Shown here in pieces: positions 27,982 to 62,600 of a stretch of 64,000 nt of DNA; position 1 is the stretch's first letter; each line of letters opens with the position of its first letter. The translations under genes were made by a program, and so were the position numbers. Source of the stretch: Tribonema minus (Eukaryota > Sar > Xanthophyceae > Tribonematales > Tribonemataceae); contig JAFCMP010000301.1 in assembly GCA_017506865.1 (NCBI GenBank), forward strand, positions 62,001 through 126,000, in the 5' to 3' direction. The notes below the pieces were generated by a model, which did no database searches, was not told the DNA's origin, and worked only from the letters and a program-made list of their open reading frames with translations.

Positions 27982-30900
27982 TTACGCAGGCCGCTCTGTT
28001 CCGCTATCTCGATCCTCAAACCACCTGTTGATGAGCTCGTACGACAGAAACAGAATTGCGGCGTTTGGGACGACCCTCGCGACGTGCGTGGCCATCCCCG
28101 CATACAGCCCCCTTACCCCCTCTTCCCGCCCAATCAGATTGAGGCTCTGCCACATGCCCGTGTACTTGAAGACGCCGTTGCGTGCCTGTTCGCGCAGCCG
28201 CGTGCGCACAACTTCGTGCGGGTAGGTGGTGATAGTGGCCATGAGTTTGCTGGCAGCGGCACTCAGGAAGTATTGGTGTGGCGGCAGCCTGTGGTAAGGC
28301 AGAACAAACATCAGTTAGCTGGCGACACATGAGCATTGATCATGGTCATTCCACAGGAAACGTGGTGCTGTTTGATTTTCTCGCAGCAGCGCTCAGAGAG
28401 TACTGGTGCGGCGGCTGGACAAAACACCATGTGTTGCAGATTGCAGTCCGCTCGAGCATTTATCAGCATCATTTTGTAAGCCACAAAAGAACGCTCCCTC
28501 TCTGAGCCAGACCACCCCCAAAGACACATAGGCAGTGATAATTCCCTCTCATGGCAGCATGGTCCAGCGCACAGCGTCATTCAAAAGGTGTCAGCCAGCA
28601 GCAAAACAAGACTCCCGCTCGCCTTCACGTGGGGCCGACTCTCAGAACAAGTGACAGCTCACAGTTGGATAGACCCAAAAACATAACTCTTGAACGCATC
28701 AACAGTACTGCTTACCTCAAGTCTCGAAATTAGAGTTCCGTACAGGATGAAGGTGTGCATGCATTTTACCATCAAGTGGTTACAGTATGCACGTTCCTCA
28801 TGGGAGCTCTGCAGATGAACTACTGCTGGAGGCGTGCTGCTTTACGCTTTGTGAAGCTTCCCATGCCTGTGGTCCCAACTGCAAGTGGTTCCTCGCACTG
28901 AAACTGTGACTATCTTGAGCTGAGAGGGCCCACGGAAACTTGCCAATTCTGTTGTGATTAGCATGAGACAAAGTTGGCAACTGTCATTGCACACAGTACA
29001 CTTAATTAACACAGGTATGTTAACCTTTAAACAGTGGCATCAAACAACGGGCTGCTGCTCCAGCCGACTTCACAAATTGAGTTCCGGCTAGGCACACGCA
29101 CCTGTCAGTTACCGGCAAGCCGTTACGACGACAGTGCTCCGCGTGCCGAGCTTCAAGATGCCGCTTCAACTTCTCGTAAGCCACAAACTGGATGCAGCCC
29201 TCGCTGCAGCCCCAATAGCTCGCGGTGAGCCCCTGTCATTGCGAAAGTCAAAAGGGATAGGGTTGAAGTTAATGGGTTGATGTGCATTCAATGCTGCTGG
29301 CTTTGATGCAAACTGGAGAGGCCATGTAATTGCGCAAGTCACAAGGGATAGGGTTGAAGTTGCTTGAGGGTAGTGTGCATTTGATGCTGCAATCCTTGTG
29401 CAGATCGTTTGTCATCATGGCCCAGACGCACGGTTGATTGGTGAATGTGCAGTTTGGATTGTACATCACGAACAGGGCAATCTGTAATTACACCAAATAT
29501 GCCACAAAGCACTTTAGTCTACATAAGGTGCTGTGAGCAGGAGATAGCTTGATCTTAATGCAGCATTTGCGTTCGAGATACTTCATCACATAATGATAAT
29601 CCTTTCCAGCACTTGTAGACAATGAACACACCTTATCTGGCACTGTGTTTGTACAATATTTCTTCAAAACTATTCATCAATACCTGCAGTATTGCTGCGG
29701 GCGCGAGTGAGAGTACCAGGGTGTTATGACGCTTGAACCCTGTTTATGTTTGCATCATGCGTTGCTCATCGAGTCATGTCGAGCTCATCAAACACACGCC
29801 GTGCAGATCAAGACTTACACAAATAAGGCTGCTGCTGACATGAGATTACTTGAGAGTGTAGTGCTGTCATTTCAGATATTTTGAAGTAGCATATACCCCC
29901 AGCATAACCACGTACTTTGAATTACATGAACTTCAACTACATGAGATGCTTGAATCATTCTCTACAGTCCATTCAACTTGCTCGTGTGACAACAGCAAAT
30001 GATGGTAGTTTCGGTAAAATTGCCACAGCTTCAACACTTCAACCCTTCCACTGTAAGAAGTTGCAGTTGCTGTGATGCTGTGAGCTATAGCAGCCTGCTT
30101 TGCTGTTATGTAGCTTTGTCAAACCAAGAAACTGCAACACCCGCACCACTGCAACGGGTCAAGCATAGAGTGAGCACCAGCCCTGTGCTCCTCATTTGAC
30201 ATTTTGTTGGTAGCATCGAAATAATTCGACCGCCTGCAATGATTCGGCCCAGTGCTGATGCAGAACCCTGGTGTCGGTATATGAGCTGGATTTCATGCCT
30301 AGATTGCCTGTCCCATGGATATGTTGAGTCAATTACTCACTTTGTAGAAGCCCCTGAACCCTTCCTGCCTGTATATGGTCTGTATCGCATGCCTGTACCC
30401 CCTATACGCCACCTGACCATGGGCTGCGTCAATGCTCGCCAGCAGCTGCATGCGCGTCTTCACCATCCTGTGAGGCACCATGCAGAGAGTAGAAGGTCAT
30501 TACTTTGTCAAATGATATTGTGTATCACGTCACCGGTTGATCCTCTGCATAGAAAGCGACCAAATGATCTATCTTTAAAGTGGCAGCACCGCCACAACCC
30601 CGCACAGGCACGTGCTGCTACAAATTTCATGACATGCTGCCAGCGGTGAGGAAAAGCGTCCTTAGTGAGAGGCCCTGCCACATCAACTATGACTCATTGC
30701 CATGGCTGATTGCTGACTCATTGCCATGACTCATCTACCATGCCTGTGCCGATCCTGGGTTGAGGTTAGGTTTAGGCCACGTGTGTGTCGACAGACCCAA
30801 CCCTACCTCTAGCAGCACTGCCATCTGCAAACTGCAGTGTATGAGCTTTCTTTTTGGCCTCATCCCTCAAGCTTGCCTTCGTGCTGGTGCCAGCCACGTC

Positions 30901-33499
30901 CCGGATCTGATCACAACCCTCATGCTGATTACACTCTTCAAGGTGATGCTGACCATAACTCGAGTGCTAAGGCTATCAATACCCCGTGAAGCCAACCACA
31001 ACCCAATTGCTAACCCAGCAATTGACCAAAACCCTATTATTGGCCATAACCCTAATGTTGACCACAACCCAACTGCTGGCTCTGGCCTGAGGGGTTGGGT
31101 AGGTGAGCATAGTGCTCTACACTGACACATTCATATCGTTGAAAGTAGTCATTGAAATAACATTTTTATGAAGTGGTTCTTGGAAACATGATATGAAGAC
31201 AACGCTGGTGTGGCTTACTAGAAAGTAGCCTCAGCTGCTTGAATGCTCTCATTAGCGCATTTACCCGGCACGCGAACACTCGCCAGACTGAAGAGGCGAT
31301 GGTGGTTAGGTGGCCACTGCTGAGAGCCCTGTGACCATGTGCATTGAACTGCCATGTATGCTGACAAAACTCTTAAAGATCCTAACTGTAGTTTCATCTA
31401 TAGGGGGGCATAGGGGGATGCACACAGTGGCAGCCTTCAGTAAACGTGAACTTATCACACAAAGGGGAATTCATGTCCGCAGTTGCTCCCGCTGACAGCT
31501 CCGTCACAGAGTGCTTTAAACAGCCCTGAGACCCTGATGCTAGCCCCAGATGAAAAGCGGATGCACTGCAGTCACACACACTGAATACTCAAATACTAAA
31601 AAACAGTTGCCCTATTTTCACTGAGCACTCACCAGATAGGAGAAGTGATGGTGTTAGCAGTCGCTCCCGCCGAAAGCCCCGCCACAATATGCGTCACCGT
31701 TCCATCCCCCAAAACCGGCACCAGCCCGCTTTTCATCGTTTCGTACGCCCAGAAATAGCTGGCACGGCTGGGGAAAATTCCCAGGAGCGTCGGGCTCAGT
31801 CCGCGGAAAAATCCCTGCGCGCCCTGTGTGTTGAAGATGTGACGGGCCACTGCAAAGGGGTTGTGTGACACTCCACTGCTGGCTTGAAGTTGCGTCTTGA
31901 CGACTTCAATCGGGCAGGTGATGGTGCTGAGGTGTCGCATGACAAAGGCAGCAAGCGGTGGGGAAGAGTAGAGGCTGGATCAGCGCTAATGCTACGCCTG
32001 CTATGTGCCTTACCCTTACAGCCCCAGGTAGTTGAAATGAAGTGTCTCTCCGCGAACTGCTCAGCAATTGATGCCTGGCGCTTAGGAAGCGGCAAAGTGT
32101 GTCAGGTAGAAACCAGTACAGTTGGTTGGCATTGCGTAAGTTTTCTAGACGTCAAATGCGTTGAGCGCATGTGACAGCGAGCAACACACGCAGCACTAGC
32201 ACAACAGCAACCGCGCGCTCCTCAATCACAAAGCACCGCGACACTCCATCAATCTGATTCTCTGCTCACAAACTGTTTTAAAGCAAGGTGGTGCTTGTAC
32301 TACTTGGCCCTAGAGCATATGCTGGCAATTCTCACCAAAGTGAAGTCACAATAAATAAAAACAATCCATTTCTAGTTCAATTGTGCTCCCCTTCTCTTCC
32401 TCAGTAAAAGTCGCAGGTTTTCAGTCAGCGTCAAGTGACATCAGACGGTAATTCCAAAAAATGCAATCATCACCGGAAGGGGGGGGGCAGCTTCTGTGTC
32501 AAGAACTGCAGAAGGCTTGCTGCTGTGGCTTCACAGGCACAGTGTAGGTTCCATGTCAGCAACACCATTGTTGCAGCGCGACTCTTTGAAACTTGTTTTG
32601 GCGTAAATGCATGATTGGAGGGGCATGCCTGATTGGAGGGGCAAGCTTTTTAATACTTCTGAAGAATGTGTACTGCAAAGTCAGCATTTGAACGTGTATG
32701 TCGCATGTGTAGTTAGATCAAGGAAGACTGCAGCTGAGCGTGTGCACAGAGCACCGAGAACCAGCAGCCCAATAATAACCACTTCGGATTATGTACACAT
32801 GTTTGAAGTGCTGAGCTGAATGACAGATTCATGAAAGAGTCATCAGCAAGAGCCAAGTGCAACACGAAACAGAAAGTATGTAGCAGATGCCATTACTGCG
32901 CAATTACCAAGCGTGCGCTCCTTGCATAGCAAACCGTGCGGCATTGGCGGGCGCAATGTAGCAAGGTCAGGTACAATAGTGGACAAACAAATATACTGCA
33001 AGGCCATTGAATGCCCTGGTTGCTATACGCTCGCAGTGCCGTAAAAGCGCCTTTCCTCACCTTAAAAATCAAGCAGCAAGAGTGCAATGCTGCGAAATAC
33101 GATGACCTTGAAACCTGCCAATTTGTTTACGATAAACATTGAGAGCAAAAAAAAGGAAAGACTGTGCATAGCCGCACCGTCAAGTGTGTGCGTTGTCGAG
33201 GAAGTGGCCGTGAGAAAGAAGCACAGTAACGCGTCGTGTTACCTGCTGATGCTGCCAGCAACGCCTCCCGCCAACAGCGCGTACCACTTATTCCTCGCCG
33301 CCTTCACAGTCACCTCTGAAGCTGTCGTGTTGGTGACGTGAGAAGCTAGGGCTTCTTCTGCGGTGGTGGCCGGCTCAGGATCTGAAGGTGCATGCCGCCG
33401 CCGCGTCTTGCTCCGCTGTAAATGATATTGGGCTGAGCCAGCTGTCATGGCCCGCATAAGGGTTCGCTTTGACTCTGCATTCACCGCTGCAGGTTCCAT
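27982..33499 (-). CDS. mitochondrial carrier, pyrimidine-nucleotide type (SLC25A33/36, Rim2-like)
   Basis: Five exons join in frame: 33499-33243, 31926-31633, 30467-30341, 29232-29102 and 28288-27982. All have GT-AG borders, and the product is 371 residues. After a ~70-residue polar N-terminus come three mitochondrial-carrier repeats with signatures P-I-E-V-V-K, P-I-W-M-V-K-T-R-M-Q and P-H-E-V-V-R-T-R-L-R-E-Q. The Trp-containing second signature and the T-A-S-Y-W-G...E-G-C-I-Q-F stretch are hallmarks of the pyrimidine nucleotide carriers and their NAD/folate relatives. Such proteins exchange pyrimidine (deoxy)nucleotides across the inner mitochondrial membrane for organelle DNA and RNA synthesis. 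NAD or folate transport is the main alternative. The gene is head to head with the AlgH-like gene at 33810. Worn copies of the exon 2 end lie in its second intron. Confidence 0.88.
29233..29400. repeat. tandem repeat next to the exon 4 acceptor of the carrier gene
   Basis: Two units of about 92 bp share GTCA.AAGGGATAGGGTTGAAG and TGTGCATT.GATGCTGC. The first unit abuts the 3' splice site of exon 4 (minus strand). Confidence 0.65.
31270..31510 (-). repeat. two worn copies of the exon 2 end of the carrier gene
   Basis: Downstream of the real exon 2 end at 31633 (minus strand), segments near 31460-31510 and 31280-31335 repeat its last ~60 bp with a spacing of about 175 bp. The first still encodes L-S-A-G-A-T-A-D-M-N-S-P against the exon's L-S-A-G-A-T-A-N-T-I-T-S-P. 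The second is recognisable mainly as DNA. Their donors have decayed (GCGAGT, or lost). Confidence 0.6.
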
Positions 33500-33809: not shown

Positions 33810-36800
33810 ATGTCCAGTCAGAGCTGCTGCTGGTGTCGCCGATTGTTGCTTCCCTCGCTGCTCCTGAGCTGGGTCTCGGTGGTGTCAGCATTTGCGCCTT
33901 CCGTGCCGCCCTCAGTCCGGCATGTCTTGAAGCGTCACCGGCACGCAGCGACACCTCTGCATTCGGAAGCGACACCAGCTGGCGATGGCGGTCAGCAACC
34001 CACAGCGCCCGAGGAGTCTGCTGATGTCGATCTGAGAGCTTTCCGCGCGAGGCTCGTCGCCTGGGGATTGGACTATGGTGAGGTGCAGAGGTCGTAGCAG
34101 CATTCTGTATTCACAGCTGGCCGATACATTGGTTGTCTTGGTTCTATTGCTATCGTCCTTGCAAGCAGCTGTCTCTCAGCATAAAAGCAACTTCAACAAA
34201 TAATTGATGAAGAAAATCTGAGGATACCCCTAGCCAGGGCAAGCGAAACGACCGCGCTTCCCTGTTCTTGTTGAGCATTGCCGTCTGTGGCGCGCACCTT
34301 CAACGTTACGTGTGACACACTTCTTGATGTCGTGCTGGCGGTTCGAGCGACATGCCACATTGGGGAAGGCACATGATCGCAGCGCAACAGCAGCGCTGGC
34401 AGCAGGTTGCGTTGTGGAATATGGCAGCGGTTCTGGTAGTGGAACACAAACAGCAGGCCGACAAGGCATGCTTGCAACAACTGATTGAAAGGTGCTGATG
34501 CTTCATGAGCGTACCAGCAGGCAGTTGATGTGGCCTTACTAGTCTGACAAATTAGCTACATGCGCAGGGGTTTATGACATGCGCCTATAGCTACGAGCGC
34601 ACATGCAGTCGCGGCAGCGCCGCAGCAGCATTGCAGCACGCGCAGCATGGCGGGCGTATGCGACTTGATGACTTGACCCATGACTTGAGTCAATGCGCCC
34701 CAAGTCTTAAAAAACAGGGCAAGTTCTTATCTCTGCAAATTCAACTCAGGTCTGCAAACCCCCCATCATACTGTTTCCACACGCAGGCGAGCAGGGCAAG
34801 ACCCCCGCAATCGCAGCGCCAGCAGCAGACGCCATTGCCGCAGGCAGCGGCAGCAGCGCGGCGGCAGCAGCGGCGGCGCCAGCGGCGGCGCGATGGGCTC
34901 ACGCATTGGCGGCACCAGAAAAGGGGTGTCTGCTGATTGCCAACGAGGGGATGTTTGATGTTGGCCAGATCTATTTCAGGCGGGCGGTGGTGCTGATCAT
35001 TGAGCACGGCGCGCGGGGGACGGCGGGGCTCATATTGAACCAGCCTACTACGAGCACCATGGTGGAGGTCACGGAAGGGCAGGACGCGTGAGTTAGTTGC
35101 CACTTTACAAGTGGCACTTTTATTGGAAACAAGTCAAAATATCGTAGAGCTCTAAGTACGTGGCATCATACTTCTGCAGAGAGTGTTTAGCTATATTAAT
35201 TGGCGCCGGCAGATTGATAGTGACTACACATACACACGGGTGGGTGGGTTGTGTTAGTGTAGGGTCATAATTGTTGCGCAGTCGGTTTTCAGAGTTGTTG
35301 ATTGGCGTACGCAGGTTGACAGTGACTACGGAAGGGGCAGGACGCGTGAGTGTGTGTGTGGCAATTATGCTTCTGCAGTCGGTGGTTAGCTTTAGCTGTA
35401 TTGATCAGCGTCAGCAGGTTGACCGTGACTACACATGTCTCCGGAAGGGCAGGACGCATGAGTTGAGGCCATATTCTGCTGCAGTCGGTGTTTAGGTTTA
35501 GCTTCATTGGTTTGCGTCGGCAGGTTGACAGTGACTACTCACACACACTGAAGGGTAGGACGCGTGAGTTTGAGGCTATTATTCTTGTGCAGTCAGTGCT
35601 GCGGTTTATTGGTATGCGGTAGCACGTTGACAGTGACTGCGCATACACAAGGATGTGTGAGTTTGTGGTCATCATTCCTGTGCTTTACAGTGTTCAGCTT
35701 TATCGGGTCGCGTCGGCAGATTGGCAGTGACTACGCGTACATGTTGTACACTTGGCGAAGAGCGCTGTGAATTTTAAGTTCAAAAGAAAACAGCACAAGG
35801 GCTGGTCATTATACTCGATGTATTGGAAGCACTATGGCGGACACCACTGCTGGCCAGAAGTTGGTCACTATCCAATGTAAGTAATTGCAGTAGTTTACTA
35901 CCTCGGAAGAAGTATGTAGCCTACTATTTCAGAAGTAGTATATGAAAGTAACATATTACTTCAAAACTAGTGTGTCACAAGAAATTACTGTGTTCCAGGT
36001 GTGGGATGCCCCTTGCCTTTGCTCCTGATGGCAGCGGCTTGTGTGGCCCATGGCAGCAGTGCTAATCCGCCTCTGTGCCCATCAACAGGCAGATCGCAGG
36101 CTTCAAAGATAATACGCTGTACTTTGGCTGTGATGTTTTCAGCTAGAACTGATACTTCTTTCTCCCCAAATGCCCAAGGCACATATCAGGAATCATATAT
36201 ATTGAAGTACATATAACCATGGGTGGGACCAACTCTTGTGCTTCGCCGGTTTGCGCCTCTCTGCCGCTCTGCCTCTGTCATCGCTGTCAACAGGCAGATT
36301 GCGGGCTTCGAAGACAACACGCTGTACTTCGGCGGCGACGTGGTGAGCGGCACAGGCGATGGCACGGATGCAGTCAACCTCATGCATGGCCGTGAGGATG
36401 TAGAGGGAACGGAGATACTCAAGGGGGTGAAGCTGGGGGGATTGGAGGAGGCGCTTGCACGCGTTGCAGAAGGCACTGCTCAACCGCAAGAGTTCAAGGT
36501 GAGGTTCAGGGATACTGTGAATGTACTATGAGTGTACTGTGAGTGTACTGTGTGGCTGTGTGTAGGTCTGCGTTGCGGAGGGCACTGCTCAGCCGCAAGA
36601 GTTCAAGGTGAGGCGCGTCCGCTGCACAGTGTACTTTTAGTGTACTTCAAGTGTACTGTGAGTGTAGTGTGTGTTTGTGGGTAGGTCTATATTGCGGAGG
36701 GCACTGCTCAACCGCAAGAGTTCAATGTGAGGGGCGTCCGCTGCACCGTGTACTGTAAGTGTACTTCGAGTGTACTGTCTGTTTGTGGGTAGGTCTTCAT

Positions 36801-37869
36801 TGCGGAGGGCACTGCGCAACCGCAAGAGTCGAAGGTGACTGCACAAGTGTACTTCAAGTGTACTTTGGGTGTACTTCAAGTGTACTGCGTGGCTGTGTGT
36901 AGGTCTACATTGCGGAGGGCACTGCTTAGCCGCAAGAGTTCATGGTGAGGCGCGTCTGCTGCGCACGTGTACTGTGGGTGTACTGTGAGTGTACTGTGAG
37001 TGTACTGCATGGCTGTGGGTAGGTCTACATTGCACAGGTTCACAGTAATGCGTACTTCCTACTTGTTGATGTATGTGATCAGGCAGCACTGACGCAAGCA
37101 ATAGTGTGCATAACAATATTCAAGTGCATGTTTGGACGTTCAGCACACATGCTAAGAGGTCTGGTGAAAACTGCACTTGTGAGGCTCATGAAGGGCAGTG
37201 GTAAACTGCAGGATTTCATGACAGAGCAAGGCAACCTTCCTGGTGTCCTGTATAGGGGCACTGTCACATATCCTGGCCCGAACCCTTTAATTCCTGTACT
37301 CAGTACATGCGTGGATTTTCACCACAGGTATCCTGCCATGGCCTCGGTGTATTGCTGCAATGGTACCTCTGCTGCTGCTGCAAGTGGGCCAATGCCATAG
37401 TGAAGTTCATGCCATTGCCTAGCATTGCAAATTCTGCTAGGCCATAAGTAAGCGCGTAGGCATCACTCTCACTGCGCTGCCTTCCTGCTTCCTTTCTTGT
37501 CGAATAATGCCAGCCACACCTCTATTGCGTACGGATTGGCTTGCGCCCCAATCAGTGAAGTTGCTACCGCGACACCCAATGCTGTTGTTATTACAACGCT
37601 GTGTGGACTTACATGCTTCACCCCATTTGGCCCCGCTTGCAATGCTTCTTTCACCCCCTTGGCCCCAGTTCTTCTGCCGCTACTGCGGCTGGGCGCCCGG
37701 CCAACTTCAAGAAGAAGTTAAAGCAGGCATCTGGTATCTGGCAGCCTGTGACGTGCCAACTATCCTGGACAACTACATCCAGGGGCAGCCCGATGGCCTG
37801 TGGTCGGATGTGCTGCGGCGAATGGGGGGTAAGTATGCTGATGTCGCCAACCAGTGGGGCGATCGATAG
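33810..37869 (+). CDS. AlgH/UPF0301 (DUF179) family protein with plastid-targeting leader
   Basis: Four exons join in frame: 33810-34077, 34787-35087, 36294-36498 and 37669-37869, giving 324 residues. The start is chosen because a signal peptide follows at once (R-R-L-L-L-P-S-L-L-L-S-W-V-S-V-V-S-A) and ends at S-A-F-A-P-S, the ASAFAP-like junction that directs proteins into heterokont plastids. In-frame ATGs at 33774/33777 would add about 12 residues. Residues ~80-150 are acidic and Ala-rich. The AlgH fold then runs to the end: G-C-L-L-I-A-N-E-G-M-F-D, V-V-L-I-I-E-H-G-A-R-G-T-A-G-L-I-L-N-Q-P, L-Y-F-G-G-D-V, R-Y-C-G-W-A-P-G-Q-L-Q-E-E and G-L-W-S-D-V-L-R-R-M-G-G-K-Y-A. Plant and algal members are plastid proteins; the biochemical role is not established. 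Introns 2 and 3 hold the exon-end repeat arrays. Confidence 0.88.
35060..35670 (+). repeat. exon-end/5'-splice-site array in AlgH intron 2
   Basis: The end of exon 2 and its donor (GGAAGGGCAGGACGC|GTGAGT) recur downstream at about 35329, 35442, 35550 and, worn, 35650, with a period of 102-113 bp. A damaged unit lies near 35225. Each unit also carries a GGCAGGTTGACAGTGACTAC-like block. Donors are GTGAGT in some copies and ATGAGT in the 35442 copy. Confidence 0.8.
36040..36140 (+). repeat. decoy copy of the start of AlgH exon 3
   Basis: At 36089, 205 bp before the real exon, an AG acceptor is followed by a diverged copy of the exon start. It reads Q-I-A-G-F-K-D-N-T-L-Y-F-G-C-D-V-F-S and then a stop (real exon: Q-I-A-G-F-E-D-N-T-L-Y-F-G-G-D-V-V-S). 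Use of this site would truncate the protein. Confidence 0.75.
36440..37040 (+). repeat. array of in-phase exon-like cassettes in AlgH intron 3
   Basis: Downstream of the real exon 3 end (36498), four copies lie at 36566-36607, 36685-36726, 36793-36834 and 36903-36944. Each is exactly 42 nt, preceded by TAG and followed by GT. They encode V-C-V-A-E-G-T-A-Q-P-Q-E-F-K, V-Y-I-A-E-G-T-A-Q-P-Q-E-F-N, V-F-I-A-E-G-T-A-Q-P-Q-E-S-K, and a fourth with an in-frame TAG. A fifth, shortened copy (37023-37037) is 15 nt. Spacers hold AGTGTACT repeats. Because exon 3 ends in phase 0, the first three could be spliced in without a frame change. Confidence 0.85.
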
Positions 37870-37995
37870 CGGCCATGAAGTTGGCAGCCCACTGCAAGGG
37901 GTGACACTCCACTGGCGGCGCATAGGGGCGGGGGAAGGGATGGGTATGCCATGTTGCCGACCAGTGGTGCGACCGATAGCGGCCATATGGTCAGC
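37845..37995 (+). repeat. duplication of the AlgH stop-codon end
   Basis: The last codons, the stop and following bases (CCAGTGGGGCGATCGATAGC then GGCCAT) recur about 107 bp downstream (CCAGTGGTGCGACCGATAGC then GGCCAT) in the 3' flank. Confidence 0.75.
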
Positions 37996-39169
37996 AAGCA
38001 ATACAAGCAGCGGCGCTCAACTGGTGGGAGCGCGCTTGCTTGCAAGGTTCAAAGGCTGAGTGGGAGCGCGGTTGGGGGGGCAGACTTGACACAGCGGACC
38101 ATCACTGAGTGAAAGCGGGGGGTTGAGCTGCCAGTGCCCCGACACTCGGGCCTTGTCACTCAGTGAATCGACAGCAGCGCATTATCAAGCGTAGCCGGTT
38201 CTCATGGTGCACCACTATAAAGTGGTCCGCTGCAGTGCCATCACAGCCTTTTCCCATTGGCGCCTGCTGTCAAAGCACAGAGGGCGCTTCAATCGCGGCG
38301 CAAGCTGCGAGTGGGCCTGGGCTGCGCAAGCCTGTCAAGCGTTGCAGCCTTGTAATGAAGGCCGCCACAATGGCAACACTGCCCACAGCACATAATGCAA
38401 GAGCCAGGGTTTGGTAATTAGGGTTTAGGGGGTCGGGGAGGGGGGGCGCAGTTGACCATGACATTCGTTTGAGCACTGCATAGGTGATCGGCACGTGCTG
38501 ACACGCTCTCGTGCAATGTAAATAGGAGGCAGCAGGCAGATCACATAGCAGGAGCCACAGATGTAGCATTGGAGGTGAAGTGGGGGAAGTTGGAGCGTAG
38601 TAGTTGTTGTTGAAGTCAACAAAGTGGAGGACTAGCACATACAACATAGCACATACAACATACCCGCTGCACACCAATGATCAGTTGCTGTGCCTTGCTG
38701 TTTGCCTCTTCTGGCTGCCACCACTATAATTCATGCCAGGTGTGTGACTAGATGCTCTGACACTCTTGACATGCACTACAGCGTAAGCATTCATATACTG
38801 TAACAGCAAGTACTTCGAAGTATTATTGATTGTATGACTGTTGATGTAGTGAGCGTTTTGTCGGGGCATGCAATGTTGCACGACATACTGTGCCTGCAGA
38901 GCATGGCTGGGCACCTTCTTGGCAAGTTTTTACTTGGCGTCGGCAATCATGAACATTCATTCAGCACGTTGGCACACTGAGAAATCACATGTTTGCTTGT
39001 GTCTACAAGTGTCCATCTCTGGCACAAAATGGGCTAAGTGTGCTGTATCACGCAGTGTTGGCATTGGGGCACTGGTGAGGCTGCTCATAATGGACAGAGG
39101 CTTGATGCAGGCCTGATTGCTGACCACAACTGCAGCACACAGAGAGGCACAGGTCATACTTTGGAAGCA
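37996..39169. other. no gene recognised
   Basis: 3' flank of the AlgH-like gene, then unassigned sequence. Frames are short. Poly-G/C runs occur (38075, 38440). Confidence 0.4.
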
Positions 39170-39177
39170 TGTGCATG

Positions 39178-39354
39178 TACTTTTTATTAATTCTCGCTCA
39201 GGGCGCGAAAAAGCCCAGATGATTGGCATCTAGCTGTAAGGAATCTACATGTCGTATGACAGTCTGAAAGTGTCGCAACGACAACCACTCAAACGCCGCC
39301 GCCGCCAAATGGCATCTCGGGGTCCTCCCCTACGTCCTCCTCCATGTGCCCCCC
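39178..39354 (-). mobile_element. LINE-like 3' end, family 1, 5'-truncated copy
   Basis: On the minus strand it ends with GGGCTTTTTCGCGCCCTGAG, CGAGAATTAATAAAAAGTAC (AATAAA included). It is nearly identical to the end of the next copy (39376-39560), differing at one or a few bases, and starts abruptly at a poly-G tract. CATG precedes the 3' end on the plus strand. Confidence 0.7.
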
Positions 39355-39375
39355 CCCATGTGCATGTATGTATGT

Positions 39376-39911
39376 CCATGTACTTTTTATTAATTCTCGC
39401 TCAGGGCGCGAAAAAGCCCAGATGATTGGCATCTAGCTGTAAGGAATCTACATGTCGTATGACAGTCTAAAAGTGTCGCAACGACAACCACTCAAACGCC
39501 GCCGCCGCCAAATGGCATCTCGGGGTCCTCCCCTACGTCCTCCTCCATGTGCCCCCCCCCCCTGGATTCTGCCATGTGTGTCATGACACGGCCAGAGTAC
39601 GCCATGTGGAGCGCTGCCGACAGTGCCGAGCGTAAGCGCGCCAGGGCGATGCCCTTGAGAGCTTTAGGGCGCGCTCCTCCGGGCACTGACATCCTGCTGG
39701 CATACTCCGTCGCCACAGCCTCCAGCAGCTTCCGCCCCTGCTCCCCGATGCTGCCAAATGACCCTATTGCCAAAGTGGCAAGTTTGTAGCAATTCTGATC
39801 ATAATGACCAGAATAGTGGGTAGTCTTGGCGGCCTCTTGGTCGCGGCAGCATGTACTTTTATTAATTTCGCTTCGCAAGGGGCGCGAAAAGCCCTCTCTG
39901 TGGATGTGCAC
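39376..39911 (-). mobile_element. LINE-like copy, family 1, with C-terminal ORF fragment
   Basis: It has the same 3' end as the 39178 copy but extends further 5'. A minus-strand frame (39911-39492) encodes L-A-I-G-S-F-G-S-I-G-E-Q-G-R-K-L-L-E-A-V, then R-L-R-S-A-L-S-A-A-L-H-M-A-Y-S-G-R-V, and ends in a Gly-rich tail. A motif of the type F-G-x-W/S-G-x-E-x-x-x-L-L, then R-x-x-L-x-x-A-L-x-x-A, is seen at the C-terminus of reverse-transcriptase proteins in algal non-LTR elements, so this is probably the tail of ORF2. The first residues of the frame may belong to flanking sequence. Confidence 0.6.
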
Positions 39912-40293: not shown

Positions 40294-40296
40294 CTG

Positions 40297-40415
40297 TGCA
40301 TGTACTTTTTATTAATTCTCGCTCAGGGCGCGAAAAAGCCCAGATGATTGGCATCTAGCTGTAAGGAATCTACATGTCGTATGACAGTCTGAAAGTGTCG
40401 CAACGACAACCACTG
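40297..40415 (-). mobile_element. LINE-like 3' end, family 1, short copy
   Basis: Only the terminal ~115 bp of family 1 remain (TACTTTTTATTAATTC to CGCAACGACAACCACT), again preceded by GCATG. Confidence 0.7.
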
Positions 40416-41145: not shown

Positions 41146-41174
41146 AGCACAGTGCGCATGGAAGCCTGCGCTGG

Positions 41175-41330
41175 AGTGTCGCTAAGAAGCGATCCATGAT
41201 CGCATTCACCCCCCTCTCAATCGCTGCATCACACCGCACTCACCCCCCTCTTGAGCGGACGCAGCCTGCGCCGGTGTGTCACTATAAAGACATCCATGAT
41301 CGCATTCACCCCCCTCTCAATCGCTGCAGT
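41175..41330 (-). repeat. duplication of the reductase stop-codon end
   Basis: The bases around the stop codon of the reductase (plus strand CATGATCGCATTCACCCCCC, then TCTCAATCGCTGCA, 41293-41328) recur 100 bp further downstream at 41194-41229, with a partial third copy at 41233-41255. Confidence 0.8.
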
Positions 41331-43760
41331 ATGGCACCGCAAGCCCCCTTCACCTGCCCCCATACCCCGGCTCGACCAAGCGTGGCACCCGTTTGCTCAT
41401 TCAGACCCCCTCGCGTTGCTGCATCGTCTGCCATGTCAGCAAAGGTATTGAAAGCGGGGTCGAATTCGCGTTCACTCAGCCGGCCCAGCGCTGAGAACAG
41501 GGCTCCCACGAATGCTCCTGCAACTGGCGCTTCAACGCCCTCCTCCTGGGGGGGTGTCATGATGCAGTTGCAGTTTGAAGGGCTATGAGCACGAGACACA
41601 TGTTAACACAATGCAATGTGATCATCCATGTCCCATGTGACAAACACAAACGTAGGATGCACCCTGGGTCCTATTACTGGTGCGTAAGGCCCTCCTCTTA
41701 GGCGTGTGCCGTGATGCAAATGCAGTACAAAGTGGATGTCATACGTATGTATGTATGCTTGGTGCTGTTTCCACTGCCACAAGTGCCTGCTGCTGCAGGC
41801 TGCAAGTACCGCAATGTGTCTGCACCCAAAGACAGACATGTGCGTTCAGCATATAAGTCCTCTCAGTGTCCTTTTAAGTCAACGTTTTGACCCTACATGA
41901 GTGCAACTGCAACCTGTGATGCAGCTGCAAGGTTCCACGCACATGCGGCTCTCTACTTCAACTTCAACAGAGGTGCGCAGGGGGCACCCATGACTCACAT
42001 CGCAGCTGACAGCAGATACTATGCTAGTAGCGCCATTGCCAGAGGTGGAAGAGAACGAGCGACAAAGCCGACGCAACTCACGAGCGCATGTGTGCTGTCC
42101 ATATATACATACGTTGGCAAACTCGCTGAGCGACTGTTTGAAGGCATGCTGCTGTATTATCCATCCATTCTACTTCATTAAGTATCGCATTCAAACTTCA
42201 ACCAGCATACCTAAAAACGTTGGGCCCAGTCGCTGAGCGACTGCTGCTGCAAGGCGTGGTGCTGCATTTACATGGTCAGCCTTTCTACTTCATTTGAAGT
42301 ATTGCAATTACATTCAATAAGCATACCTACGTACTTGGGCCCACTCGCTGAGCGCCTGCTGGAAGGCGTGGTACGGCGTGATCATGGCCGTCGTTTCTAC
42401 TTCAACAGGTATCACATTCAAACTTCAACAAGCATACGGCCCACCCAATGAGCGACTGCTGCAAGGCGGGTACGGAGTGATCATGGCCGTCCTCTACCTT
42501 AACAAATCTCACATTCACACTTCAACAAGCATCCCTACATACCTGGGCCCACTCGCTAAGCGACTGCTGGAAGGCGTGGTACGGCGTGATCATGGCCGTC
42601 AGCGCAATGAGCGGCTCCATATCCGCCTCGCTAGCGCACACCACCGGCGTGCCAATCTGCTGCAGCAGCGGGTCACCGGCAGCGTAGCTAAAGAGCCTGG
42701 CACCGCCGGCCCTTCCGCCTGTGCGTGCATCTCGGATAAAGAAGTCGCCTGCAAGTTGAGTGCTGCTGCTCCTGGCTTCCCACACTGACATGCCGCCGGT
42801 GCCAGGGTACTGCAGTATGGGGCCTAATCGGCGTGCGCAGCTGGGCAGCGGTATGCAGCGTACGATCCTAGACGGGTTGACGTCTGGAAGTAGAGCCTTG
42901 AGCTCCGCCATGGTGATGGTGGCCATGACGCTGATGATGCGGGCGTGTTCCGGAAAGCGCGTGCTTGGAAGAACGGAACGCGCCGCGTCTGGCAGCAGGC
43001 ACAGGAACACTACATCTGCATTGTCCACTGTAGGTGGTATATTTATACGTGCACCCCGTAGGCGTGGGTCCATGAAAATGTTGTTGGATGGCGGACACAC
43101 CGACGAAGCAGCGGCAACGCAGAGACAGCGTGGGAAAGGGGACAAAAGGCGCAGAATGAGAGCAAGTGTTGTGAGACAGGCAGTGACTAACAGTCACTGC
43201 TCGCATACATGGAACTGGGGGTAGTAGGAAGCAGCACTACATGAGACAAAGGATGCAATTTGAACAACTTGACGTCCGCAGTGCAGTATTCTGGTGAGGT
43301 GCAATTGGCGAATGTGAGTAAGATGATATGGGTTGCAATATCACTTGATTCCACCACTAATTGTGCTCAGGCAGCTTGCACGTAAGTTCCCACCTGCCTC
43401 TTGAATGCTTCCTGCTACAGTCACGGTGCCAGGAAATCGCCTAGCCAGCTCCGTACTAACGGAGGCGCTGCGCGGGCTGAGAGTGATGCTTCGAGGCACC
43501 AGATCCGGTCTTGATGGCTCGCAAAACCCCTGCACCATGGCCTTCGCTATTTTCCCACATCCCACAAACCCCAGCGAGCCTCTTGACCTCGCCGACTCAG
43601 TGGGACCTCTTTGCATATCCAGATTGTGCAGGGACATGGCCATGGTCGTGGAGCTGGAGACCAGCAGCCCACGGCAGGGAGACCAGCCGAGAACAGCAGC
43701 GGTGAGCGCAAATCGCAGTAGCGCCACTCCAGTTATGCTCTGCCTCTGGCTTTTTCGCAT
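41306..43760 (-). CDS. pyrroline-5-carboxylate reductase (ProC-like)
   Basis: Three exons join in frame: 43760-43394, 43027-42543 and 41545-41306, giving 363 residues. The N-terminus has a hydrophobic leader (G-V-A-L-L-R-F-A-L-T-A-A-V-L-G-W-S-P-C-R-G), suggesting import into an organelle. A second ATG at residue ~40 could give a cytosolic form. The Rossmann dinucleotide site is G-F-V-G-C-G-K-I-A-K-A-M, followed by V-D-N-A-D-V-V-F-L, then I-I-S-V-M-A-T-I-T-M-A-E-L. The C-terminal helical domain ends with F-A-D-M-A-D-D-A-A-T-R-G-G-L-N-E-Q, the conserved A-T-P-G-G-L-N-E-Q region of ProC-like reductases (Pro replaced by Arg). The family reduces pyrroline-5-carboxylate to proline with NAD(P)H; some ProC-like members have other imine substrates. 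It is head to head with the cyclophilin gene. Confidence 0.85.
42105..42600 (-). repeat. exon-end/5'-splice-site array in reductase intron 2
   Basis: The end of exon 2 (minus strand ...CAGCAGTCGCTTAGCGAGTG then GGCCCAG|GTATGT, at 42543) recurs in the intron with plus-strand positions of about 42433, 42333, 42221 and 42108, a period of 100-112 bp. Copies diverge with distance, and the copy near 42333 keeps a plausible donor (GTACGT). Units carry CTTCAACAAGCATAC-like filler. Confidence 0.85.
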
Positions 43761-46800: not shown

Positions 46801-49800
46801 TGCGATGGCATGTGACGCGAATTGTGACAACACCGGCTTGCGCGTCTCTGCGCCCTACATGCCTACCTTCTGCACCAATCAATTCCCATGCATACCTACC
46901 TACCTACAACACCATACACACATACCCACCTACATGCTGGAACACAACAGTACCTACCATGCTCATATAATCACCATACATACCTACCTACCGCGCCCTG
47001 TATACCTACCCTGCAGGGCTATACGGCACCGCGGCGCCGCGCACGTGCGCCAACTTCATGGCCATGGCCAACGGCTGCACAGTGCTCCGAGACGCCTGGG
47101 TGCCGTATTCCCCCATTGAGCAGTTACATTACGACCAAGGGGCACTCGAACCGGCACCCGCAGACCAAATCTCAGTTGAAAGGTCGAGCTCGGGTGGCAG
47201 CCCAGAGGGGTCGTATGCTGCTCTTTCGCACCGCGTGCGCCGCTCTACATCAGCTTGCAACAGCGGTAATAGCGTGATTGACAGCAGCGGCAGCAGCGGC
47301 GGCAGTGGGGGCGATGCCGGCAGCGGTGGCAGCAGTGACAGCGGCGGCAGCAGCAGCAGCAGCAGCAGCGGCAGCAGCAGCAGCGGCAGTGATGGCAGCA
47401 GCGACGACAGTGGCGGCGGTGGCAGCGGCGGCGCGCTACGCATCGCGCGTGCTGGTACGCCAATGTGGCTGCACTACAAGCGCACGCCGCTGCACACCAT
47501 TGAGCCGGGCATTCAAGTGAGGGGCGGCGACGTGATCAACAGGGACGGGACGGGCGGGCACTCCATCTACGGCCCTCTGGTGCGTCACTGCTTGAACTTT
47601 TGGTACGCTGTCTTGGCACTCTTTGGTGCGTCACTGCTTGAACTTCCAGTACACTATATCTACGGCCCTCTGATGCGTCACTGCTTGAACCTTTTTGTAC
47701 ACGTGGAAGTAACGTCGCTGCAACGCGTCACCTCACTTGCGGCAGTTTTTCTAAAGCGCTCTGGCTCACTTCAACATGCTGGCAGGGCATCGCCCCAGTG
47801 CGCCATATAGATGCAAGTGTTTGTCAGTTAGGATCCGTCGCTAACCCTAACGCTAACCGCAAGTTGCATGCTGGAAGGCATGAACGATTGTGTTCATACC
47901 GCTGGTGATCGTAGTGTACTTGGGGTGTGTGGCTACATGCGCAGTTCAGACAAAACTTTACTTTGTCCTTCACACTTGACCTGGGAGTGTTTATGTTCAC
48001 TCGTCGTCAGAGCATGCATGCAGCTGTTGGGGTTAGGGTTTGGGTTGGTGAACTCAATCCCTTACCTTTTAACATGCACAAGGCAGTCGAGCATGCTGCC
48101 ATCGCCATTACAATGGTCAACCTTAGGGGCTAGCTTTAGCCATATGTCAAGGGTAGTATAGAATTGAGGCTTGAGGGAAGCATTGGTGATAGGACTGGAG
48201 TAAGGGCTAGTGCTGGGCTTACAGGTATGCGTGTAGCTGATGCAGGTCCTTACAACATGCAAATGTGACTCAGTTTGAGGACTGTTTTAATCAATTTTGC
48301 ATACCTAGCTTCCGTTCTCGGTTTGTAGGGTATGGCCTTCAGTAAATGCAATGTCACCGCAGCACTGAAAGCCTTTGTCAGTTCAAGAAGGTACATGATG
48401 AAACGGATGTCACAGTACCACAGTCCCAGTTAACATTGATACTGCCCATCCTGTATGATCCAAGCATGTTGACACTCATTCTACCTTTGTAAAGCTCCTC
48501 GCAGATGCACTGGCATCGGTCAGCATTGCGCATTTCTTTCAACACTCTCTGGTGTCCGAATGAATTATGACCATGTCATCGTGCATCAACGCAACTTCGT
48601 GTTCGTGTTGCATTGCTCCTGCAGTTTCCGGATGAGAGCCTGAAGCTTCGCCACCTGTCAGAGGGCGTAATTTCTATGGCTAACGCTGGTGAGTTTGTCG
48701 CGAGCTTTCCGAATGTACAAGCGCATTTTACCTTGCTTTTTCCCCTCTAAATTTTCCTACCTACTTCAACAATAATGCATTCATCAGACAGCTGCAGTAG
48801 TTCAGACCTTGTGGCCTGTGTGAGACTGTCTTTCTTCCCCTTCGCCACGTCTCAGAGGGCGTCATATCCATGGCCAACGCTGGTGAGTTTGCCACAACCT
48901 TTCAAAATCCTTTTTGCAGTTGAGTTACGCCTTGGTTTTTTTCCACTTTATTTTCTAGTCACTTCAGCAAGCATGCAGTCATAAAACAGCTACTTAGTAC
49001 AGTAGTGCAGACCTTGTGGCTTATTTGAGAGCTTCTTCCTTGCCCCTCACCACCCTTGTAATAGTTGTGGGCTTGTTCTCGAGCTCTAGGGTTATGGTTA
49101 GGGTTAGGGTTAGGGTTTGGGTTAGCATTGCAGCGCTCCAAACTTTGCGATCCGGAAACGCACTCGAAGAAAGTGGTGGCTGTGTAAGCACATTTGAGTA
49201 TGATGCGCAAGGCCTCTTCATTGGCTTCAGGCACGGTGGAGGAGGGCAGGCTTCTTCGCACAGATACCACCTTCAAGATAGTATTCCATAACACATGCTT
49301 GTGGAGGTTTCCGAGTAACTGTCAGTTCCCACTCTGAGCAGTGCTTAGGCAAGAAACGCTGTGAAGGCATTGGTAGAGAGGCACACCAACCGATTAGGGC
49401 AGTCGGCCGTAAATACATCCAAGGGTTAAGAGCCCTCTCACACACACCAGTCGCACCATACACACTGTTGAGACCGCTTGAGCGGAGTCAGAGCATTTCA
49501 GATGCAGATGATGGCGTACAACAAGTCAGGCACAAGAAAGCTTCTGCAGCTGTGAGAAGGTCCTGAATTGGCATTTACCCCGTCCGTACGCTCCAGGGCG
49601 TTGCATAATACGTGGGGAAAGTTCAGCACCTGGCATCCCTCCTGAGCAACTACATCTGCACCTGAAACTCGCACCGTGGGCTGCCCTCCTCTCCTGATGC
49701 CACCCAGAACTGCTCGTAGAGTGCTGCACCTGCTATGAGCAAGGGGCAGGGGCTGCAGCACATAGCCTGCTAGGAGTGCTTGCGTTTATGCTGCAGCCCC

Positions 49801-52800
49801 TGCCCCTTGCACATAACAGGTTAGGCACTCTACAAGAAGCGCTGGGTGAGGAAGGGCTGACCACGGTGCAAGTTCCACGTGCAGATGTAGTTGGATAGCA
49901 GGGATGCCAGATGCCCCACCTTCCCCATGTAATCATCAACACCCCAGAGCGTCTGGGCGATGTGAAGGCAAGGGTGCCGATTCAGGACTGAGTCTTTCTC
50001 TTGGCTGCAAGACACTATTGTGTGCCTCGCTCAAAGGTTACGCGGTCATCCGCATCTGACGTGCTCTGCCTCAGCTCAAGTGTTCGCACCAGTGTACCTT
50101 GCAGCACCGGGGCGTGTATGAGAGGGCTGTTGCCCCTCGGCAGTATTCACGGCCGCCTGCCCCGGCCTGTTGATGAGCCTGTCTACCGCCATGGTCAGTT
50201 GCTGTGTTATATACAGGGTACGGCGGAGACACTGCTGCAAGTTGAGGCAAACTTTAAGGTAGGTACAGTAGTGTAGGCAGGAGGTGTTGGTCATGCCGAT
50301 TGTAGGAATATGGAGACAGGGTTCAAGAACCTTGCTCTTGGCAAAACACTGTGAAAACAGCTGCTTTCAAAGAAGCAGAGGTTGCTCTTGGAACATTACT
50401 AGCAAGTTCTGACCAGTTCTGTCAACTTCTGTCCCCAAAAGGTGGAAGGTACTCCGCGATGTGTTTTGTATCCGGCATACTGTATGGACAGTGCAACAAC
50501 ACAGGACTTTGTTGTCATTCATCCCATGCACTTGTATCCTATCCTAACACTGCAACACACAGGCCCGAACAGCAACAACTCTCAGTTGGGCATCACATTG
50601 GCGCCCATGCCTTGGTCTCATACTTCAAGGTGCCCATATGGTGAAACATACAGTGTAGCCACACATCGCATACCACTTAATTGTCTCATGCCATTATGTT
50701 CCTATGCAATGCCCAGGCCCAGACAGCAACCAGTCTCAGTTTGTCATCACCCTGGCGCCTACGCCTTGGATGGATGGGTCACATGTGGTGTTTGGCACCG
50801 TGCTTGAAGGCATGCAGACACTCCACAGGTACAAACTCAAACCCTTTTGTACCGCAACTTCAACCCTATCATGCTAGGGCAATGGAGCGTCACCCATTGA
50901 GTGTTTGGCACCGTGCTCGAAGGCATGCAGACCCTCCACAGGTACAAACTCAAACCCTTGCTGCAACTTCAACCCTATCATGCTAGGGCAGTGGAGTGTC
51001 ACCCATTGAGTGTTTGGCGCTGTGCTCGAGGACATGCAGACCCTCCACAGGTGCAAAACCTAATCTTACCGCAACTCCAACCCTATCAGGCTAGAGCACC
51101 CATTGAGTTCCGCTCCGTGTAAGCTGCAATTGAAGCCTCGAGATCTGCAAGTGCCATGTTTTGTGCGATCAACACCAGTCACAGCTTGTCAGCTTACAGT
51201 CACAAGGTCCTCAGCTCGGAGTGCGCCGCAATGTTAATTACTCTTGTGCCCATCGTATGTGCACTCCCTGCAGCACGTGATGTGCTGATGAGCTTGATCA
51301 TGACTGCAGTGGCAAGTAGATGCGCTAACAATGGGAGCATCAGTGCTCAGCAGATGCTGAGCGTTGCACCAGCACAAATGACAGTGTGCACAGCCTTAAG
51401 CATGGCGGTTGTGCACAAGCAATGCTGAGCTGCTTTGGGGAAGTTGAAGTTGAAGTTGTGCAAGGTCTGCTCACTTGAGCTCGTACTTGAAGTGGTCACA
51501 CCAGCGTCGTTTCCAGGAACATGTGTTGCTGTCATGTAATGCTACTTCTGAAGTACGTTGTGAACCAACAGCGTGTGGTTGGTGCTGTGAGAGCTTCAAT
51601 TTTCGATAGGCGCGCATGCTAGAGTTGAAGCTAGAGCAACCCATTTTAGTGTGATGTGTATGTGTTGCCACGTGGCTTTGGTCTGCAGCAATGAGTGAGT
51701 GAGGTGAGTCAGCGAGGGACTTGTACTCTTGAAGTCCAATGAGCGAGTGAATGAGTGCATAGGCCAATGATTCATCTATGCCTACAAAGGTTTGCTCATT
51801 CTGCAAGGTGGCCACAATGATTGAGGTCTCAAGTAAATGAGTGATGCGCACTGATGGTGTCCGGATCTTGCAGGTCGCGATGGGATATGGCCTAGACAGC
51901 AATGAGTGAGTTTGCGAGTCAGCAAGTGACTTGCTGACATGAGTAAGCACGTGATGCGACTGACTCACTCTGGTAGTGTGCACGTGTGTCGCAGGGTGGC
52001 GAGGGAGTACGGCCTAGACAGCAAGGCAGACAAGGCGGTGACCATATCAGACTGCGGAGTCATCACGGCACATGCCAGCGCAGCAGAAGAGGAGAGCATC
52101 GAGCGCAGCACACCGGTGAGTTGTTGAATTTATATCTTGAAGTACTCACAAGTTAAGTTTAAGTTTGCACACGTACACTCAAGTACGCAGAGGCTCTTAT
52201 GTTGAACAGCATGCAAGGAGCTTGTACACCTGCACACAGATACTCTTCTATTGAAGAGCATGTAAGGAGCATGTACGCCTGCTTCCAAAGTACCTCCTAG
52301 CATCAGCTGGAGGTGCATTTTGCGCGTCGATGTAGATCGAGGCGTCTGTTGCACTTTTGTGGTCATCGCCAAGGCATTTACCTGTACCGGCTTTCTGCTT
52401 TTAGCATGTGTAACCTGCACATGCGGTAGGAGTTTTGTAAATAATGGCTACTGGTTGTACCTCCAACGTGTGCACCAAGGTAGTAGCTGACGCTGTGGTG
52501 GGACCCATGGTGGCCAAAATCATATTGCATCAACCACAACTGTTGTATGCAGCTTCTCTTGACAGCGTATGCATCTATTTTCCCCCCAACAAAAGGGGTC
52601 TTCGAAGCGTCAGACAAAATGTTGACCAGCAACATACAGTATGGCCTGGCAGTAGTGGCCCTGCTCACCCTCACACCAACGAAAACACCCCCGGGTGTGA
52701 CTTCTTGCCACCCCCAACTGTCCTGGAAAGCTTCACGCAGGCCAAGCCGCCCCCAATAACTGTATTTCAGAGACAAACTGCAAGGCGCCTCACCCCCCGT

Positions 52801-56570: not shown

Positions 56571-56613
<43 letters not shown>

Positions 56614-59600: not shown

Positions 59601-62600
59601 AAGTTGAAGATGAAGATGCCGTGGCAGCTGAGGACGCTCCCAAGAAGAAGGGCAAGCACACAAAAGGCGCCGATGCCGCCGCCGCTGCTGCTGCGGAGGA
59701 GGAAGTGCTGCCGGCAAAGGGCCGCGGCGGCGGCAGACGCGCTGCTGCCGCCGCCGCCGCCGCCGCCGCTGCTGCTGCTGAGGCAGAGGAGGCGCTGCGG
59801 CTAACTTCAACTGCAACTTCCGGCAGGGGAGGTTCTAGGCGCAGGAGGGAGGGGGGCGATGAACCAGTGCACCCGCTGCTGTTGGTGGGGGGGAGGGGGT
59901 TGGGAGCATTGAAGAGCAAGGCGAAGGGTGAGGTGGCGGCAGAAGCGGAGGAGAAGGAGGAGGAGCATGAGGCTGCGCTAATACAGGTACGTATGACATG
60001 AACTCAGCCAAATACTCCTCACACAGTCGGTATACTCGGAGTGTAGGTGTATGTATGGGCCCGTACAGAGGCGGCGGCACAAAAACATTGGAGAAGGAGG
60101 AGGAGGAGGAGGCAGCGTTTGTACAGGTGCGCTTAGCCAGTGTTGGATAAATCCAAGGATTTCCTCACAAGCTCTGTATGTTTCAACTTGAAGTATGTGT
60201 ATAGTCTAGACCCATGCGTCCTTACACAATAATGAGGTCACGGCGGAAATGTACAGGTATGCTTAGCCAGTACTGTAATTCCTCATACGATCCGAATACT
60301 TCAACTGCAAGTGCGTATAGACCCATGCATATGTACACAATAATGAGGTCACGACGGAAATGTACAGGTACGCATAGCCGGTTTCTCCTTAGATACTCTG
60401 TATACTTCAGCTGTAACTATATGTATGGGTCATACACAGTAATGACGTCATGGCGGAAATGGGGGAGTGCTGACACTTGGAGGCAGTTCTGACACTTGGG
60501 TCCACCTCTTATGTCAAGCTCTTGCCAATACAAGTAGACCTCTGCAGTGTACACATTCTCTCCATTTCCGCGAATATTGTGTTCACATACAAAGTGGTGG
60601 AGCAGGAGCCAGTGCTCAGCAGGAGCCATGTGCGGGTGGGCGGTATCTGCTATTATGAAGTGGGCTATTGTATGCACTCGAGCACATCATTGTGGGTGGG
60701 GGAGAGTCAGGACTTGCGTCACGAAGGCCTATGTAAACATGCGTTTGTGGACCTGGGGCAGCGGTGAGAAAGGTCAGCCAGGTGGTATCGGCAAAGCTCA
60801 ATGTGCGCTGCCGTATCTCTACCCAAGCAGTGCTCTTGCCTTCAAGTGCACGTGTGTACCTCAAGGATGGTTTGCATTGCCCATCCGTGCATCCTACTGT
60901 CAGTGCGAGACATGTCTTCATGCTGTTGTTGCTGTGCTACAGTCTGGTGCCGTGAATGGTCAATATCAGGTGCTGTGCACACAGTGCTCCTACTCTCATT
61001 TGTCCTAACTTTCACATCATCTTGCTGCTGTTAGCCTCTCTAAGCCAGTGTTGCTGCCACCTGGCACTCATTGCATGTGCCTGTGAGCTGCAGTGCCCGA
61101 CACCATCATTCAGTTGCTGTGCGCTGCCATATAGAGTGTTGCCGATTCATATAGCGTTACGCTCCCAGCAGTGCAGATCGCTGACCATCTGCTGTGCACT
61201 GCCTCAGAGTGCAACTGGAGTGCATGAGAGCGAGAATAACATGTTTGATGTTATGCACAGCACTGCTCAGCGCCGGTCATATGCTGTGCGCTGCCGCAGA
61301 ACAGCGGTGTATGCATCACACAAACGTCAAGTGCTACAGCACTTCAAAGATGAATCTAGTGACGCTCACAGCAGTGCCCATGTCCTCCCATCCTGCTGTG
61401 CGCTGCCACACAGAGCGCGGATGGTATGTATCAAGTCACCCTCCCACCAGTGCTCGTAGCGGACCTTGCCTCTGACTGGCGCCGAGCCGCCGCCATCGCC
61501 GCAGCAGCAGCAGATGATGATGATGCTCAACGCAATGATGACAGTGCTCAGCAGCACGGTGAGGGCAGTGCTCAGCACGGCGAAGACAGCAGTGCTCAGC
61601 ACAATGAGGGTAGTGCTCAGCACAGTGATGGCAGCAGTGCTCAGCGTGGTGAGGGCAGCGGTGCTCAACGTGATGAGGGCAGCAGTGCTCAGCATGGGGA
61701 GGTCAGCAGTGCTCAGCGCGATGAGGACGGCAGTGCTCAGCATATTGACGACAGTGCTCAGCGGAAACAGGCAAGCCTGGGCGTCGAGCTTGGTGGCGAG
61801 AGCGGCGGCGAAGGGGGTCCCTCAGCTGCTGGAGAGGCTCTGCTGACAGCGGCAGGGGGCAAGGGGGTAGGGGAGGAGGCAGGGGAGGGGGGTGGTGAGG
61901 GGGAAGGGGGTGCGGAGCGCGCAGATGAAGCAGGGGAGGGGGAGGGGGGTGTCAGCGAGCAGAAGCAGCCCTCTGATGGCAGCAGTGCTCAGCAAGCACC
62001 GCAGCACGTCGTTACAAAGGAAGCAGGGGGGAAAGGCGCGGTCGCGACTGGGGACATGCTGGAGCCAGCAGGGAGCATCAGCGGGGGGTACGAGAGCGGT
62101 GATGAGAGCGGTGCCAGGATGGCAGTTGACGCGCCTCTTGAAGAAAGTGACGCTCCCAACCAGCGAGTTGAGGTTAGCGGTGACTCGCGTGCACGCGTAC
62201 CCAACAGCAGCGCTGCCGCGGCACTTGGCACAGCTGCGGAAGCAGCAGCAGAGCGCACAGCCTCTGCTGCGAAGTCTGCTGGCGAAGCGGGGCGTGAAGG
62301 GGAGGAAGGGGGGGAGGAGGAACCGTCGGCGAAGGCGGCAGCTGCTGCTGCTTCGGAGAGCGCAGGGGGTGGGGGAGAGACGGGGTATGAGGGCGGGGAT
62401 GAACTTCAACTTCAACCAAACAACGCTCAGGAAGCGCAGGGCGAATCAGGCGAAAATGCAGCTGGGGAGGGCCAAGCGGGGAATGCAGCATCGGCAGCAG
62501 TTGCAGGGGGCGCTGCCACTCCCGCTGCTGATGCCGCCGCTGCTGCCGCTGATGCCACTGCCGCCGCTGCTGCCGCCGCTGCTGCTGGTGGCGGTATGGG

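Follow-up and report, generated by a model that had tools for sequence, protein, structure and literature searches.

That introns can be gained through tandem genomic duplication is accepted, according to excerpts of three papers (PMC3443670, PMC4974935, PMC2891723), one of which also describes, for the potato RdRp gene, another duplication, of 83 bp, that lies within an intron (PMC4974935). Here we describe head-to-tail copies of exon edges within the introns of a xanthophyte, Tribonema minus. They were seen in a stretch of 64,000 nucleotides (the window; C301:62001-126000) of its 158-Mb assembly, where the initial annotation had claimed that exon 3' ends, together with their 5' splice sites, are tandemly copied into introns of all five spliced genes. 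Copies in this window and in a sample of kinesin genes make it probable, though far from certain, that tandem duplication recurs with a bias to coding/non-coding borders and feeds the growth of introns.

We used exon borders of three kinds. For AlgH, for P5C reductase and, from 47475 on, for cyclophilin they come from spliced alignment of annotated T. minus proteins or of a relative's transcript, the transcript being used for P5C reductase; the cyclophilin borders at 45745 and 47017 are readings of the open frame together with a Pfam match, and the exons of the carrier and of the 55-kb gene are predictions. Translated, the AlgH exons match T. minus JKP88DRAFT_320705 at 100% identity over 188 amino acids. 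Exon edges of 66 nt were used as probes against the adjacent intron, with 300 Markov shuffles each; the donor of the tiny first exon of AlgH (34655) lay outside the probed set. At all nine donors named by the initial annotation, in all five genes, the exon-tail match in the next intron exceeded all 300 shuffles (AlgH 35087 and 36498; P5C reductase 42543, minus strand; cyclophilin 45745, 47579, 48688 and 50828; the 55-kb gene 59990; the carrier 31633, minus strand), so the recurrence of exon tails that it had noticed is real. Self-BLAST of the window and Tandem Repeats Finder (TRF) showed head-to-tail arrays at most of these sites. A tenth donor, cyclophilin 52115, had no copy in its adjacent intron.

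In AlgH (plus strand, gene model P0001), the tail of exon 34795..35087, with its donor at 35088, recurs in an intron array at 35155-35741 (TRF, self-BLAST), including a copy at 35328-35351 (probe 23/24), and the array at exon end 36498 spans 36461..37038 (TRF period ~108-119, 4.5 copies; self-BLAST; probe 41/44). The P5C reductase array at exon end 42543 occupies 42100..42600 on the minus strand (TRF, self-BLAST; probe 60/64; border from P0121 and P0122). Cyclophilin, on the plus strand, carries arrays at exon ends 45745 (45676..46166; TRF period 141; self-BLAST; probe 59/65) and 50828 (50788..51098; TRF period 109, 2.8 copies, 88%; probe 58/67), and copies at exon ends 47579 (47559..47700; 89.8% over 49 nt, lag 93; also found by probe) and 48688 (48646..49053; 71% over 215 nt, lag 194; probe 43/49). 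Beyond the predicted exon end 59990 of the 55-kb gene, a copy lies at 60069..60131 on the plus strand (48/63, above 300 shuffles). The copy of the predicted carrier exon end, at 31278..31342 on the minus strand, is worn; it scored 24 against a null maximum of 17.5 in 300 shuffles and fell under the self-BLAST threshold.

Exon starts and gene ends were copied as well. Three of the nine acceptors probed (36294, 50717 and 51995) exceeded all 300 shuffles. An upstream copy at 36083..36143 (plus strand; 49/61 identical; self-BLAST 80.6%, lag 205) repeats the start and the acceptor of AlgH exon 36294-36498, and there are also upstream copies of the starts of cyclophilin exons 50717-50828 (50551..50615, plus strand; 80% over 65 nt, lag 154; probe 46/56) and 51995 (51870..51902, plus strand; 28/34). 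Three more were marginal: P5C reductase 41545 (p=0.010), with a copy at 41669..41702 on the minus strand and a self-BLAST match of 42 bits joining 41516-41574 with 41669-41726; 37669 (p=0.030); and 34795 (p=0.007), whose match sits upstream of the first exon, outside the intron. The edge probe found no copy at the remaining three, 47017, 48625 and 52827. Both stop-codon edges probed (37869, and 41306 on the minus strand) were duplicated together with the 3' flank. The AlgH copy, on the plus strand, takes in the 3' coding end and the stop (37867-37869, from P0001) and spans 37826..38027 (lag 111; self-BLAST 72%; probe 41/50); that of P5C reductase, of the same make-up, spans 41163..41328 on the minus strand (lag 100; 89% over 66 nt; probe 44/53). 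These duplications, only two in number, involve no splice site. The window was empty in Rfam at gathering cut-offs and in a bacterial-mode tRNA scan.

We then turned to a sample from the same assembly that was not chosen for repeats. From 132 matches to the kinesin domain (PF00225), about 40 gene regions were picked and 24 analysed; with five smaller loci, these made 29 loci that were aligned, by a spliced aligner written for the purpose, to a profile of the genome's own kinesin exons. We kept 68 of 162 predicted junctions, at which both exons scored well and were contiguous in the profile, and dropped 94, which left 22 loci with a kept junction and seven with none. A copy was counted when it held at least 20 exon nt. 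Self-matches of at least 45 bits numbered 184 in the first 14 loci and 0 in Markov sequences. Copies were present at 14 of 68 donors and at 14 of 68 acceptors, and in 14 of the 22 loci, which carries the pattern beyond the window, as the initial annotation had supposed. Its restriction to exon 3' ends, and with it a donor-only process, is ruled out by the equal count of acceptors and by the two stop-codon edges. Donor and acceptor copies shared an intron more often than expected from independence (6/68, p=0.03).

A scan of 101 kinesin exons gave 59 exon-copy matches. In 29 of them the start of an exon recurs in the intron before it, and in 23 the end of an exon recurs in the intron after it; five are interior, and in the last two an edge is matched beyond the neighbouring predicted intron. 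Thus 52 of the 59 lay in the intron touching the copied edge, on the same side, and none was inverted, on the wrong side or a whole-exon copy. The copies are direct, adjacent and head to tail, which is what defines tandem genomic duplication. Beyond the matched edge, the intron was also homologous in 12 of 18 testable edges, compared with 3 of 27 in the exon-side control; the other six testable edges had no demonstrated homology of the flanking intron. Since edge matches of high identity are short relative to their lag, we had initially favoured short-patch copying of the exon edge alone, but rejected it because of this flanking homology, which also upholds the tandem nature proposed at the outset. 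The duplicated unit is therefore an exon edge plus intron, of which the intron half has decayed further. Its exon portion was usually 20-90 nt, and the nearest lag had a median of 170 bp (range 52-264). Among edge matches of at least 80% identity, 20/22 were shorter than 0.7 of the lag, and 14/23 purely intronic matches reached at least 0.9 of it. The copies had also been described as more worn with distance, and here the kinesin arrays followed no consistent rule: at edges with at least two copies, identity fell with distance at L042, L044 and L043 and did not at L045, L047, L059 and junction 5 of L054.

Is the border itself special? The most serious rival supposes that tandem duplication strikes uniformly, and that edges stay visible longer through purifying selection on one of the two copies while duplications within exons are purged. 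Its expectations agree with the mismatches between exon and copy, which fell on codon positions 1:2:3 as 78:77:167, as with one constrained and one free copy, and with the 15 of 41 arrays that were confined to introns. The other 26 were edge-anchored. When arrays were placed at random within their own intron and flanking exons, 10.4 were expected at edges, and none of 200,000 draws was as high as 26. A decay-aware forward simulation of random tandem duplication, with neutral decay, indels and protected exons (about 37-39 arrays), gave 26-31% edge-anchored arrays, with a maximum of 47% in 48 runs, against the 63% observed; simulations that included slower decay gave about 10-12 such arrays. Copies of at least 0.9 identity were found by 19/136 edge probes and 87/2,986 intron probes, and an age-matched comparison, with introns at 0.85 (208/2,986), left an excess of about two-fold at edges. 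In six simulated rate sets, edges were rarer than introns at every cut-off. The copied exon depth was shallow, with a median of 43 nt against the deeper overlap of 68 nt simulated under one rate set (p=3e-4), and none of 22 exon-middle probes had a copy. Matches of at least 80% identity covered 14-15% of bases at edges and 7% in deep intron, about two-fold (first 40 kinesin junctions, as for all per-base figures here). Uniform duplication with slower decay was insufficient under several simulated rate sets, and we regard it as an unlikely account, at perhaps one chance in a few.

Several observations nevertheless weigh against a border bias. Counted over all matches, per-base repeat cover was 21-25% on the exon sides of edges and 28% in deep intron, a point in favour of uniform duplication, and at 0.75 identity 40-nt probes did equally well at edges (26/136) and in introns (545/2,986). 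Because these two measures come out equal, the enrichment rests on array counts, high-identity copies and simulations with assumed rates. Put against the initial annotation, the enrichment of tandem repeats at exon ends stands per array, by placement and by decay-aware simulation, but not per base over all matches. The sample is a single gene family. Among copies of at least 0.9 identity, 36 of 50 mismatches lay at third codon positions, although copies from the same array do not count independently. Plain decay would not lead one to expect this share; some of these copies may have been affected by gene conversion or may stem from a diverged allele. Finally, introns with edge copies were longer than the others (median 851 vs 543 bp, p=6e-4), an association in line with the idea that the duplications lengthen introns, and long introns also give arrays more room. 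We nonetheless infer that the arrays probably are a cause of the greater length. Edges with copies had a larger GC-content step, at donors 0.146 vs 0.095 (p=0.095) and at acceptors 0.111 vs 0.050 (p=0.045), a weak hint as to the border preference.

A second rival holds that selection keeps the copies as spare, decoy or regulatory splice sites, much as the initial annotation had spoken of spare donors. GT was retained in 20/22 donor copies and AG in 21/24 acceptor copies, and the third-position bias of the most similar copies points the same way. That retention, however, is not clearly above what neutral decay would leave. In arrays with at least two copies, changes unique to a copy were spread over the three codon positions as 56:59:73, not significantly uneven (chi-square ~2.6, p ~0.27), whereas changes unique to the exon were 5:4:14, and the overall 78:77:167 is close to the 1:1:2 expected when an unconstrained copy is compared with an exon whose own changes are synonymous. 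The copies decay without coding constraint; a constraint on them is not borne out by copy-unique changes, though mismatches in the most similar copies are weighted towards third positions. Stop-codon edges are duplicated likewise, and both the annotated P5C reductase and the protein derived from the relative's transcript use the original border. We therefore found no support for functional spare donors, and consider selection for splice sites improbable.

Assembly error can be given very little credence: contigs C16, C317 and C165 appear redundant, but over their exon-derived part the copies diverge from the exon by 0-36% (mostly 5-25%), and misassembly would not produce such divergence. Introners have been reported in algae and protists including a stramenopile (PMC7789003). 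An introner-like or other mobile element inserted at exon borders is the least credible source here, since every array derives from its own exon and edge probes matched another gene's intron in 0/136 cases at 0.8 identity and 2/136 at 0.75.

Duplication biased to borders may proceed as follows. Head-to-tail duplications, mostly of about 100-260 bp, would recur in T. minus genes. One breakpoint would usually fall 20-90 nt inside the coding sequence, and its partner in the neighbouring intron or the 3' flank. Whichever copy remains attached to the exon body would stay in use (the outer donor, the inner acceptor or the first stop), and the other would turn into intron or flank and decay without coding constraint; repeated rounds would build the arrays. 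Splice motifs are unlikely to be the breakpoints, because the splice site lies inside the unit and not at its ends. Because an outer donor or inner acceptor on the exon body gives a normal protein, duplications that span an edge are tolerated where those within exons would be purged. This tolerance accounts for the survival of edge duplications, not for their excess, and the border preference is most likely mutational rather than selective. Candidate triggers would be replication slippage or repair at steps of composition or nucleosome occupancy, or transcription-linked lesions. A wider proposal, which we put forward only tentatively and hold to be possible rather than probable, is that duplication targeted to borders and triggered at such coding/non-coding junctions (by a step in composition or nucleosomes, or by lesions where the junctions are transcribed) is one of the main contributors to intron length in this lineage, with introns growing out of copies of their own exon edges. 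Transposons are the usual explanation of intron length; in T. minus, introns hold copies of the edges of their own exons that can be dated: the slowly evolving exon serves as a reference, and the codon positions hit by changes reveal age and constraint. If the border preference is genome-wide, it would point to exon edges as mutational hotspots, which is testable in a culturable alga, and gene predictors should expect false splice sites beside real ones.

Other features of the window, and one elsewhere in the assembly, were noted. On the minus strand, 42688-42789 is an intron in the annotated T. minus P5C reductase (P0122) and is read through in frame by the relative's transcript (P0121), so the annotation may be wrong there; at 43360-43700 (minus strand), an open frame encodes the reductase's nucleotide-binding N-terminus (PF03807 in the composite translation), which is absent from P0122 and P0121, both of which start at 43073. 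Interstitial telomere-like CCCTAA/TTAGGG runs lie in or beside introns at 45001-45030, 46735-46765 and 49087-49125. Between AlgH and the last reductase exon, the tandem duplication of 203 bp at 39162-39560 is recent (97% identity), and 0.9-1.1 kb away a third copy, identical over 120 bp, lies at 40295-40414. The region 2501-30000, in which few genes were identified, has far fewer local repeats than 30-61 kb: coding repeats in an open reading frame near 17-18 kb and in an ankyrin open reading frame near 24-25 kb, and otherwise only 29224-29390 and one 28-bp pair. A second AlgH-like gene occurs at C16:497206-500154, C317:945-2612 and C165:125015-126649 of the assembly (G000); its scores on these contigs are identical or nearly so, suggesting that haplotypes were left uncollapsed, and its examined part (L066) had no self-match of at least 38 bits.

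Among the matches listed in a literature search, whose coverage leaves out most subscription journals, no title or abstract described border-anchored arrays in xanthophytes or other algae, and the passages available of two green-alga genome papers (PMC11228838, PMC10400597) contain no such feature. Introners, as presented in passages of PMC7789003, are likewise repeats tied to introns in protists, but there one family spreads over many genes, whereas here each array comes from its own exon edge. Tandem exon duplication, with its mutually exclusive exons, also leaves tandem copies of coding sequence in introns; it copies whole exons, however, and here only the edge is copied (whole-exon copies 0/59). 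The potato RdRp duplication, in the excerpt of PMC4974935, comes closer, with a unit that spans an exon-intron border and a parental intron-exon structure, but it concerns a single gene, and the T. minus pattern occurs in 14/22 sampled loci. Intron gain by tandem duplication, as in the Drosophila cases of the PMC2891723 excerpt, shares with our arrays a local head-to-tail duplication that carries splice signals and leaves the protein intact as the extra copy is spliced out. There, the new intron arises between two AGGT copies, whereas in T. minus existing introns are enlarged and the donor or acceptor that the copy carries lies deep within the intron. In the Rogers-type geometry the copy abuts the acceptor; here 22/23 donor-side matches end 201-1490 nt before it. 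At junction 0 of L058, a 193-bp intron, a repeat copy does reach the acceptor and stops there, as an intron gained by tandem duplication would lead one to expect. In the known cases duplication makes an intron; in T. minus, duplication enlarges introns that already exist.

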